A program made the translations under genes and the position numbers. The notes beneath the pieces were generated by a model that saw only the letters and a program-made list of their open reading frames with translations, made no database searches and was not told where the DNA came from. Shown here piece after piece: positions 1 through 22,812 of a DNA stretch of 64,000 nt; the first letter of the stretch is position 1, and each line of letters begins with the position of its first letter. The stretch comes from Collinsella tanakaei (lineage in GTDB: Bacteria > Actinomycetota > Coriobacteriia > Coriobacteriales > Coriobacteriaceae), in NCBI RefSeq assembly GCF_016902615.1, contig NZ_JACJMB010000005.1, positions 1-64,000 on the forward strand, written 5' to 3'.

Positions 1-68
1 TCGAGTAGGACTCGAACCTACAACAACGCGGTTAACAGCCGCGGGCTCTACCATTGAGCTATCGAGGA
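1..68 (-). tRNA. tRNA-Asn (GTT), 3' end cut by window edge
   Basis: Read on the minus strand, positions 68 to 1 give a tRNA body. The 5' acceptor strand is TCCTCGA, followed by a D-arm, then an anticodon stem CGCGG/CCGCG with loop CTGTTAA (anticodon GTT, asparagine), and a T-arm containing GGTTCGAGTCC. The last bases of the acceptor stem and the discriminator base lie outside the window. The anticodon assignment is read directly from the loop. Confidence 0.93.
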
Positions 69-125: not shown

Positions 126-388
126 GAGGTTTTTTTGGAGAACTTTTCCGGCTCGGAGCCGTGCCGGTAGCCAGTGGCAAGAAATCCGTCCGGTTGCAGG
201 CGGAATGCTGCCGAACAGCGACGGGGCCGCATGAATATCCTCTAAAGCTGGTATCACATAGTACATACCGGTAACACGGTGGGCGTCGGGAATGCCTGCG
301 GGCACGCCGACGCGCTGTCTCATGTAGGGTGCCGTGTCGCGCGGATGCGTCCGCGGGCGCTCGGCGATCGTCGAAGCGAGGTTATGCG
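126..388. other. Intergenic region upstream of the KamA-like gene
   Basis: No convincing gene is seen. There is a T-run (131-137) and a CGTCGG/CCGACG inverted repeat around 266-312 that could form a leader hairpin. A purine-rich AGCGAGG just before 389 serves as a ribosome binding site. Confidence 0.4.
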
Positions 389-1480
389 ATGAAGCGTTGG
401 CAGACTCTTCTGGACGAGAGCTACCGAAGCCTGTCCGATCTGCAGGAGTCGTTGGGCATCAGCGAGGAGACCTATGCGGAGCTCGCTCCCTTCGAGGAGC
501 GCTACCCGGTCCTCATCACCCCGTACTACCTGCGCCTGATGAACCGGCTCGACCCGGAGGATCCCATCAAGCGCATGGTCGTCCCCGATCTCTCCGTTCC
601 CGCCGCCATCGACGCCGAGACGCAGGAGAACACCGAGGCAACCATCCAGGGCGGTCAGCACAAGTACCAGCAATCGGTCCTCATCATCTCCAACGATGCC
701 ACCATGAGCTATGCGCGCCATTGCTACCGGCGCGATTTCGCGCACCTCGACGAGGACGAGGCGGCCCTGCGCATCCCGAAGCTCGCCGAATACATCGGCG
801 ACCATCCCGAGATCGACAACATCTCGATCTCGGGCGGCGATGCGTTCCTCAACACCAACGAGCGCATCGGTGAGTACCTGAAGGCCTTCGCCTTCCTGCC
901 GAACGTTGACTACATCCGCTTCACCACGAGCGTCCCGGCCACCTTCCCGCAGCGCATCACCGAAGACGACGGCGACCTGCTCGCGCTGCTCTCTCGCTAC
1001 GCGAAGGCGAAGGCGATCATCGTGGTCACGCAGTTCAACCATCCGCGCGAGATCACCGACGAGGCCTACACCGCCGTGCGCCTGCTGCGCGAGGCGGGCT
1101 GCACGATCAGGAACGAGTCGGTGCTCCTGCGCGGGGTGAACGACTCGCCGGAGACCTTGAGCGAGCTCATGCGCGGCCTGGTGTCCATCGGCGTGGTGCC
1201 CTATTACCTGTACCAGTGCCGTGTGCCCGTGGGATTCGAGGACCATCTGCAGGTCCCGCTCGCCGAGGGCATGCGCATCGTGGGCGAGGCGAAGGCGAAG
1301 ATGAGCGGCATGGCGAACAGCTTCCGCTACATCATGAGCCACCGCCTGGGCAAGGTGCAGATGGTCGGCTTCGCTGACGACGGGAAGGCCGTCTTCAAGG
1401 TCCATGCGGCGCGCCGTGCCGAGGACCAAGGGCGCATCTTCACCGCCGAGCTCACCGACGACCAGGTCTGGCTCGATTAG
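389..1480 (+). CDS. KamA/EpmB-like radical SAM-fold protein lacking two cluster cysteines
   Basis: The 363-residue protein has the lysine 2,3-aminomutase fold signature: ITPYYLRL near residue 43, the GGQHKYQQ segment, SGGD at 148-151, and a C-terminal region with an RLGK motif where the family's PLP lysine lies. In KamA and EpmB the cluster-binding motif is C-x3-C-x2-C. Here the aligned positions are Thr105, Ala109 and Cys112, so two of the three iron-sulfur ligands are missing although the flanking RHCYRRDF is kept. The aspartate expected seven residues before the PLP lysine is also not conserved. ATG at 389 is chosen for its AGCGAGG ribosome binding site; an upstream in-frame extension has no family similarity. 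Loss of radical chemistry is inferred; the fold assignment is strong. The function is unknown. Confidence 0.8.
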   Translation: MKRWQTLLDESYRSLSDLQESLGISEETYAELAPFEERYPVLITPYYLRLMNRLDPEDPIKRMVVPDLSVPAAIDAETQENTEATIQGGQHKYQQSVLIISNDATMSYARHCYRRDFAHLDEDEAALRIPKLAEYIGDHPEIDNISISGGDAFLNTNERIGEYLKAFAFLPNVDYIRFTTSVPATFPQRITEDDGDLLALLSRYAKAKAIIVVTQFNHPREITDEAYTAVRLLREAGCTIRNESVLLRGVNDSPETLSELMRGLVSIGVVPYYLYQCRVPVGFEDHLQVPLAEGMRIVGEAKAKMSGMANSFRYIMSHRLGKVQMVGFADDGKAVFKVHAARRAEDQGRIFTAELTDDQVWLD

Positions 1481-1687: not shown

Positions 1688-1799
1688 TATACTGAATACG
1701 ACCTTTAAGCGCGTACGAGATACCGCAAGGAGCTACATACAAGCTGCCCTCAGCTTCTTCCTGTGGATGTCTCGCCGCGTGCGGTCGGGCATCTTTTTT
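1688..1799 (+). promoter_or_regulatory. pyr operon promoter and attenuator leader
   Basis: A -10 box TATACT at 1688-1693 is followed by a leader of about 160 bases before pyrR. The leader holds a small hairpin AAGCTG/CAGCTT (1741-1756), then a strong intrinsic terminator at 1766-1799: a 13-pair stem starting GATG and closing with CATC, followed by six T. A terminator just before pyrR is the expected layout for PyrR-dependent transcription attenuation. I could not match the classic PyrR anti-antiterminator loop with certainty; the best candidate is the GATACCGCAAGGAGC segment near 1720. The -35 is weak. The 1490-1687 stretch before it shows nothing else. Confidence 0.7.
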
Positions 1800-1852
1800 C
1801 TTGCGTGTCCCGCGCGTGCGGGATGCGCGCGAACCTTAAGGGAAGGAGATTG

Positions 1853-2437
1853 ATGAGCACGTCTTCACCCAAGGCCGTCATTATGGACGAGGCCGCGGTC
1901 TCGCGCGCGATGACGCGTATCGCGCACGAGATCCTCGAGCGCAACGAGGGCTGCGACAACCTCGCCATCGTCGGCATCGTGACGCGCGGCGACCTTCTGG
2001 CCAAGGAGCTCGTCGAGCACATCAAGGATATCGAGGGGGTGGACGTTCCCCTCGGCAGTCTGGACATCAGCTTCTACCGCGATGACTTCCAGACCCATTT
2101 CTCGCCCGAGGTCCACGCCACCGACATCCCCTTCGACGTCGACGGCAAGCGCATCGTTTTGGTGGACGACATCCTCTACACGGGCCGTACCATCCGCTGC
2201 GCGCTCGACGCCATCATGGACCTTGGCCGTCCTTCCCGCGTGGAGCTGGCGGTGCTGGTCGATCGCGGCCATCGCGAGCTGCCCATCTGCCCCGATTTCG
2301 TGGGCAAGAACGTTCCGTCCTCCCATGAGGAGAACGTGCGCCTGTACCTCAAGGATGTCGACGGCCGCACGGCCGTGGAGATCACCGATGTCGCGGCGGG
2401 CGCCCACGTGGGCTCCGCGCCGCTGGGAGGGGAGTAG
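1853..2437 (+). CDS. pyrR: Bifunctional pyr operon regulator / uracil phosphoribosyltransferase PyrR
   Basis: This 194-residue PRTase-fold protein carries the PRPP-binding loop [19 protein letters not shown] and the family segments [20 protein letters not shown] and [10 protein letters not shown]. PyrR binds pyr leader mRNA in the presence of UMP or UTP and causes premature termination; it may also have weak uracil phosphoribosyltransferase activity. It heads a pyrR-B-C-K-D-F operon and sits directly behind a leader terminator, consistent with autogenous control. ATG at 1853 follows the ribosome binding site GGAAGGAG; longer in-frame starts lie inside the attenuator and are rejected. Confidence 0.96.
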
Positions 2438-21612: not shown

Positions 21613-22812
21613 ATGGTCGATGCTCTCTACATCCATGTGCCGTTTTGCCATGCCCGGTGCCTGTACTGCGATTTCGATTCGAGGGCTTGCCGGGATGGTG
21701 CCGCCTACGATGCCTTTGCGCGCGCGATGGCGGCCTGCATCGAGCGGCTCGGGACGGCAGGTGCGCTCGCATGGTGCCGGACGGCCTATATCGGCGGCGG
21801 TACGCCGAGCGTGCTGGGGGAGGGCCTGGTCGAGATCGTGCGGGCGGTGCGTGCCGCGGCGCCGGAGCTCGTCGAGTTCTCGTGCGAGGCGAACCCGGAG
21901 TCGTTTTCAGCGGAGTTGGCGGCACGGCTTGCCGAAGTGGGTGCGACCCGCGTCTCGCTCGGCGTCCAGAGCTTCGATGACAGGGAGCTGCGCGCGCTGG
22001 GGCGCCTGCATAGCGCGGACACCGCCCGGCAGGCGATCGCGGCCGCGCGCGCTGCAGGGCTCGCCGTGTCGTGCGACCTCATGTGCGGCATCCCGCTTCA
22101 GACCGAGACGAGCTGGGGCGCCTCGCTGGAGGCCGCAGTCGCGACGGAGGTCTCTCACGTGTCGGTCTATCCGCTGACCATCGAGGAGGGTACCCCGTTT
22201 GCCTCGAAGGTCTCGCGCGGGGCGCTGGTAGAGCCCGATGAGGACTTCCAGGCCTGGTGCATGGAGGAGGCGAGGCGCCGGCTGATGGGGGCGGGCATGC
22301 ACCCCTACGAGGTGGCGAGCTACGCGCGGCCGGGTGCGGAATGCGCGCACAACATCGCGTATTGGACGGGCAAGAGCTATCTGGGCCTCGGCCGGTCTGC
22401 GGCGAGCATGCTCGACCGCGCGACCTACGGAAGCCTGCGCGAGGTGCTCGGCCTGCCGGCCGCCTGCGATACCGCGGCGCGCATCCGCTTCGTCCAGACA
22501 ACCGACGCGCTGCCCGGCGTCGGCGCGGATGCGCCTGCCTACGATGTCGAGGAGATGACTGCTCGCGAGGCTGCCGCGGAGGATCTCATGCTCGGCATGC
22601 GGATGGCGCGCGGGGTGGACGAGGGGCTGCTCGCGCGCGCCCGTGAGGTCATCGGCGCCGGCGCGCTCGACGCTGCGGTCGATGAGGCCCTGCACCGCGG
22701 CCTTGCCGTCTGGGCAGATGCGGATGGCTCCCATCGCCTCGCGCCGACGCATGACGGGTGGCTGCTGGGCAACGAGCTCTATGGGCTGTTGTGGAATCTG
22801 GCCTCCTGCTGA
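21613..22812 (+). CDS. hemW: HemW-type radical SAM protein (heme chaperone)
   Basis: The 399-residue protein has the radical SAM motif in FCHARCLYCDF (C-x3-C-x2-C) near residue 12, GGGTPS near residue 58, the SLGVQSFDDRELRALGR signature and the HemW C-terminal region with NIAYWTGKSYLGLG. It lacks the extra cysteine between the second and third cluster ligands that marks coproporphyrinogen dehydrogenase HemN, so the HemW (heme-binding/trafficking) call is preferred. TGAGGAG precedes the start. It is the first gene of a chaperone and RNA-processing cluster. Confidence 0.9.
   Translation: MVDALYIHVPFCHARCLYCDFDSRACRDGAAYDAFARAMAACIERLGTAGALAWCRTAYIGGGTPSVLGEGLVEIVRAVRAAAPELVEFSCEANPESFSAELAARLAEVGATRVSLGVQSFDDRELRALGRLHSADTARQAIAAARAAGLAVSCDLMCGIPLQTETSWGASLEAAVATEVSHVSVYPLTIEEGTPFASKVSRGALVEPDEDFQAWCMEEARRRLMGAGMHPYEVASYARPGAECAHNIAYWTGKSYLGLGRSAASMLDRATYGSLREVLGLPAACDTAARIRFVQTTDALPGVGADAPAYDVEEMTAREAAAEDLMLGMRMARGVDEGLLARAREVIGAGALDAAVDEALHRGLAVWADADGSHRLAPTHDGWLLGNELYGLLWNLASC

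Follow-up and report, generated by a model that had tools for sequence, protein, structure and literature searches.

The window, by which we mean the whole stretch of 64,000 nucleotides of Collinsella tanakaei DNA analysed here, begins with a truncated tRNA gene and, 388 bases from the contig end, a gene encoding a homologue of the KamA family in which the cysteine triad of the radical-SAM cluster is broken (Table 1). We refer to this gene, its orthologues and their products as Cys-less, with regard to the triad. The reading frame is intact over 363 codons, as the first-pass annotation of this DNA had read it, and a longer form starting with GTG at position 329 is probably not genuine, judging from the conservation in relatives of the MKRW start at 389.

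Table 1. Features at the locus of the Cys-less gene (window positions)
Feature	Position	Strand	Basis or remark
tRNA gene truncated by the contig end (Asn in orthologous loci)	1..68	-	Fixed upstream neighbour
Conserved palindromic, operator-like site CTGGTATCACATAGTACATACCGG	248..271		Upstream of the gene in 8/8 Cys-less species
Ribosome-binding site GAAGCGAGG	373..381	+	Conserved in the Cys-less clade
Cys-less KamA homologue gene, 363 aa, ATG start, TAG stop	389..1480	+	Intact ORF; MKRW start conserved in relatives
Degenerate cluster motif, Thr105 (701-703), Ala109 (713-715), Cys112 (722-724), replacing Cys-x3-Cys-x2-Cys	701..724	+	Codons and alignment
Asp116, in place of an arginine invariant in 76 cysteine-bearing relatives	734..736	+	Asp in 8/8 Cys-less proteins
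GGD motif (residues 149-151)	833..841	+	Retained in all relatives
Lys322, probable counterpart of the PLP lysine of lysine 2,3-aminomutase	1352..1354	+	8/8 Cys-less proteins and 62 aligned relatives
pyrR, first gene of the pyrimidine operon	1853..2437	+	Usual downstream neighbour; own conserved leader

Where the contig reaches far enough upstream, the gene order is infB, rbfA, truB, dnaG, rpoD and tRNA-Asn, followed by the KamA-type gene or genes; where it continues downstream, pyrR and the pyrimidine operon come next, with the exception of genome G013. A functional tie to the pyr operon is unlikely given that pyrR has a separate conserved leader, and is further weakened by G013, where the next gene after the Cys-less one is a different ORF and pyrR is found on a separate contig. 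The leader itself (window positions 1690-1850) is highly conserved in all compared species and is probably a transcription attenuator. In one further species, G008, a Nif11-type leader-peptide gene, possibly the precursor of a peptide natural product, lies between tRNA-Asn and the Cys-less gene (L095:9489-9809), and a possible HicA/HicB-like toxin-antitoxin pair, the second ORF of which gave HTH hits, lies between the Cys-less gene and pyrR (L095:11160-11997). Each was seen in this species only, and a tie between the Nif11-type gene and the Cys-less gene was rejected on that ground.

The first-pass annotation had proposed looking in other Coriobacteriia for orthologues with the same substitutions, and Cys-less orthologues were found in eight of 45 Collinsella species. 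The Cys-less proteins group in one clade (support 100/100; stem of 0.73, a long branch) in which C. ihumii diverges first, and their neighbours in the tree are cysteine-bearing Collinsella paralogues and Spirochaetaceae proteins; the closest cysteine-bearing relatives belong to a KamA subfamily without a characterised member. In other genera of the class, 22 KamA-type loci were read, and each of them retains the full triad. A cysteine-bearing paralogue lies directly upstream of the Cys-less gene in three species, and a single Collinsella clade, the expectation under tandem duplication, was not rejected (p-AU 0.216). The Cys-less gene probably originated by such a duplication in the lineage of C. 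tanakaei and C. ihumii. By protein and family-model search, a second KamA homologue was present neither in the window genome (99.96 % complete) nor in four others; as these five species have no other KamA homologue, the Cys-less protein would appear to work without a cysteine-bearing partner of the KamA family. A plasmid search returned distant relatives only. Around the genes of the cysteine-bearing relatives, no partner gene recurred other than through common descent, and hence there was no clue to a pathway.

Codons and an alignment to the Clostridium lysine 2,3-aminomutase (PDB 2a5h), the sole sequence match of the window protein among solved structures, set Thr105, Ala109 and Cys112 against Cys125, Cys129 and Cys132, respectively, which bears out the original placement of these residues at the C-x3-C-x2-C positions. 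All 76 aligned cysteine-bearing relatives have the full triad; of the eight Cys-less proteins, seven carry replacements at two triad positions and that of C. ihumii at one. At the motif the window protein has TMSYARHC; the sequence is ALGYARHC in two species, TLTYSRNC, TLSYSRNC or TLAYSRNC in four species together and CLTYARRC in C. ihumii (L016:8001-9080), where the middle cysteine is gone and the first and third are retained. The CxxxCxxC signature of functional radical SAM enzymes is broken across the whole clade, and the window protein scores 19.8 bits with Pfam PF04055, below the cut-off of 29.5. As C. ihumii lost the middle cysteine alone and branches early, the triad appears to have been lost stepwise.

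The window protein has three cysteines in total (112, 238 and 277), of which Cys112 and Cys277 are retained in all eight Cys-less proteins, and Cys238 opens strand beta-5, at the barrel end far from the active site in the predicted model. Cluster cysteines elsewhere in the protein, which would have overturned the initial reading according to its own terms, were sought and ruled out, given the small number of cysteines and their unsuitable placement. It is close to certain that the window protein carries no radical-SAM cluster; loss of cluster binding is less certain in C. ihumii, which retains two triad cysteines. Elsewhere in the window, a HemW-like radical-SAM gene (21613-22812) has an intact-looking CHARCLYC motif, as read by eye, such that the genome appears to retain other radical-SAM proteins.

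Pairwise dN/dS among the eight Cys-less genes ranges from 0.06 to 0.42 (NG86), with no stop or frameshift in any of the eight species and 63-86 % amino acid identity between the other Cys-less proteins and that of the window. Ninety-two columns are invariant or nearly so in the cysteine-bearing relatives, and 58 of these are kept in all eight Cys-less proteins, including K322, G149-G150-D151, R114, K92 and Y93. At eight more family-invariant columns, the Cys-less proteins all share a new residue (T96S, F113Y, R116D, L146S, G179T, V184A, Q243E and F275Y), whilst some others vary within the clade. By comparison, a control set of eight cysteine-bearing Spirochaetaceae proteins kept 89 of 94 invariant columns, so that the Cys-less protein is evidently constrained, but differently. 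Changes in the cluster/SAM region comprise R116D, L146S, G179T, V184A, Q243E and, outside the 92 columns, R181S, the last again in all eight proteins. The remark in the first-pass annotation that the residues surrounding the motif are conserved holds for Y108, R110 and R114 but not for R116, V118 and G119, which are invariant in the relatives and changed here. Its two broader claims, that a cluster cannot be bound in the normal way and that the gene is not a decaying pseudogene, are both supported by the eight orthologues, purifying selection and stepwise loss.

An AlphaFold2 model built on 62 relatives (mean pLDDT 87, pTM 0.89), which replaced one from the eight sequences alone that had reached pLDDT 72, has the radical-SAM barrel fold, with the former cluster loop (residues 101-120) at pLDDT 51-65. 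Its best structural match by far is lysine 2,3-aminomutase 2a5h_B (VIA-align Z 33.4, 327 residues, 2.8 A); against other radical-SAM folds Z was 11-14. Of the SAM motifs, GGD is kept, but G179T, R181S and Q243E are clade-wide at positions that presumably contact SAM. Lys322 probably falls at the position of the PLP lysine of lysine 2,3-aminomutase (Lys337), an equivalence drawn from its Phe+10 spacing to a conserved Phe, as the HMMER alignment stops at residue 308. The idea that the protein might bind PLP or SAM can be divided: PLP binding via Lys322 is likely, in view of the lysine retained there by each of the eight proteins, and SAM binding is disfavoured by the new residues that became fixed at several family-invariant positions of the cluster/SAM region.

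With TIGR00238 (KamA family), the window protein scores 193.1 bits against a curated cut-off of 199.2; all eight Cys-less proteins fall under this value and the three tandem paralogues over it. On comparison with EpmB and AblA, as the first-pass annotation had suggested, the protein is neither, scoring far below the curated cut-offs of both (164.5 bits versus 369.3 for EpmB, TIGR03821; 189 versus 525.4 for AblA, TIGR03820). Additionally, the Asp pair for the lysine side chain is absent, Asp293 and Asp330 being replaced by Arg278 and Ile315, respectively, the second placed by spacing. Judging by sequence and model, the window protein is a KamA family homologue by descent and fold and is not a functional radical-SAM enzyme.

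The palindrome CTGGTAT-N10-ATACC upstream of the Cys-less gene is, besides the ribosome-binding site, the only long invariant block in that region in all eight species. In the tandem species it sits between both KamA-type genes, and it is absent upstream of the cysteine-bearing paralogues. Of 45 Collinsella genomes, 39 contain the pattern TGGTAT-N10-ATACCR, usually at one to three sites, and the reversed control pattern is found almost nowhere; some of the single-strand matches may be chance or coding. Seven of the eight carrier genomes have their other strong site before glmS, which in most of them is divergent from a gene for a LacI-type regulator. In other Collinsella the palindrome is found before glmS, glutamine synthetase III/metF and secreted N-acetylglucosaminidases/hexosaminidases (GH84 and GH20), and in isolated instances before genes for GH31, GH95 and pyruvate phosphate dikinase (loci with the palindrome: L170-L176 and L207-L221). 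From this distribution, we suggest recruitment of the Cys-less gene into an amino-sugar/glutamine regulon of Collinsella, a link to glmS that consists of a shared short palindrome; co-regulation is no proof of a common pathway, and the function of glmS need not be related. The LacI-type regulator is insecure as the binder of the palindrome, since the site at glmS also occurs in genomes where that LacI gene is not called at the locus. At one glmS locus, a larE-like gene (L171:4911-5771) adjoins the LacI-type regulator and corA, with other lar genes not seen in that locus.

Lysine 2,3-aminomutase is oligomeric, and with a cysteine-bearing paralogue as the adjacent upstream gene in three species, the Cys-less protein could be conceived of as a pseudoenzyme, a non-catalytic partner subunit that joins a cysteine-bearing KamA protein in a mixed oligomer and modulates it. 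Such a role is unlikely as a general function because five of the eight species, including that of the near-complete window genome, have no such paralogue; moreover, the operator-like site between the two genes is the Cys-less gene's own and the paralogue has none. We consider this explanation improbable overall. A good deal less probable is the persistence of radical-SAM chemistry, with Cys112 ligating the cluster together with Cys277, Thr, Asp116 or a ligand from outside the protein. Whilst the retention of GGD, Cys112 and Cys277 in all eight proteins and the two triad cysteines of C. ihumii would fit, the three conserved cysteines offer no third ligand, with Cys238 so distant, and R116, G179, R181 and Q243 are replaced clade-wide. 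To our knowledge, no radical-SAM enzyme has a ligation of this type.

Equally hard to credit is a recently inactivated gene drifting without function, to which the long stem branch and the variable family-invariant positions might point: reading frames free of stops and frameshifts across eight species of the identities given above, dN/dS well below 1, newly fixed residues and a conserved ribosome-binding site and operator-like site all argue against it. Finally, removal of the cysteines by sequencing or assembly error, conceivable for a gene so near a contig end, has a negligible probability and is refuted by the orthologues, as seven more species, from isolates and metagenome bins, show the loss with different residues.

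The best explanation, and one we hold to be reasonably probable, is a neofunctionalised, cluster-free pseudo-radical-SAM protein derived from a KamA-type enzyme, probably with PLP bound. A paralogue of an uncharacterised KamA-type radical-SAM enzyme would have arisen by the tandem duplication proposed above and lost its [4Fe-4S] ligands stepwise, the middle cysteine before the first, after which the Cys-less gene would have been held by purifying selection. Its product most likely has the lysine 2,3-aminomutase fold but no radical-SAM cluster, and forms no 5'-deoxyadenosyl radical, SAM binding presumably having been lost; PLP would probably be bound through Lys322, with an amino acid held as a Schiff base. 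It may then act without radicals, either as a ligand sensor or regulatory protein or as a simple PLP enzyme, and its own promoter, with a regulator putatively shared with glmS, would tie it to amino-sugar/glutamine supply. More tentatively, and with doubt outweighing confidence, the lysine 2,3-aminomutase scaffold may have lost its cluster and become a PLP-only enzyme, or an amino-acid/PLP sensor, in the service of amino-sugar/glutamine metabolism. If true, a single fold would have passed in nature from radical to polar chemistry, with C. ihumii as a living intermediate.

Radical-SAM enzymes are defined by their cluster, and here a stable, selected lineage has dropped it whilst retaining the fold and the apparent PLP lysine. 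Three species with an adjacent canonical paralogue, and a fourth with a half-way form, would permit a direct test of whether the scaffold works without radicals. As a caution, Cys-less proteins may receive an aminomutase annotation though very probably incapable of that activity.

Amongst known systems, the candidate regulon resembles, in outline, that of NagR (ROK family) in Bifidobacterium, likewise a gut actinobacterium, where palindromic operators precede amino-sugar and host-glycan genes (PMC9599254). Our literature search returned no paper on KamA proteins with a degenerate radical-SAM motif and no established function or biochemistry for the nearest KamA subfamily. The members of this subfamily (TIGR00238, about 365 aa; Lachnospiraceae, Spirochaetaceae, Coriobacteriia and archaea), which include the tandem Collinsella paralogue and are the closest tree neighbours of the Cys-less clade, are homologous to the Cys-less protein over its full length at about 37-52 % identity and share the GK lysine, GGD, QCR and FRY..SH..GK motifs; unlike the Cys-less proteins, they retain CxxxCxxC, R116, G179 and Q243. 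KamA/AblA (2a5h) has the same fold and PLP lysine position at 29-30 % identity over about 327 residues, but possesses the cluster cysteines and Asp293, which binds the lysine side chain, whereas the whole subfamily, like the Cys-less protein, has Arg278 at that position. EpmB, which serves EF-P beta-lysylation, belongs to the same superfamily and is similar in length to the Cys-less protein, with the triad absent only in the latter.
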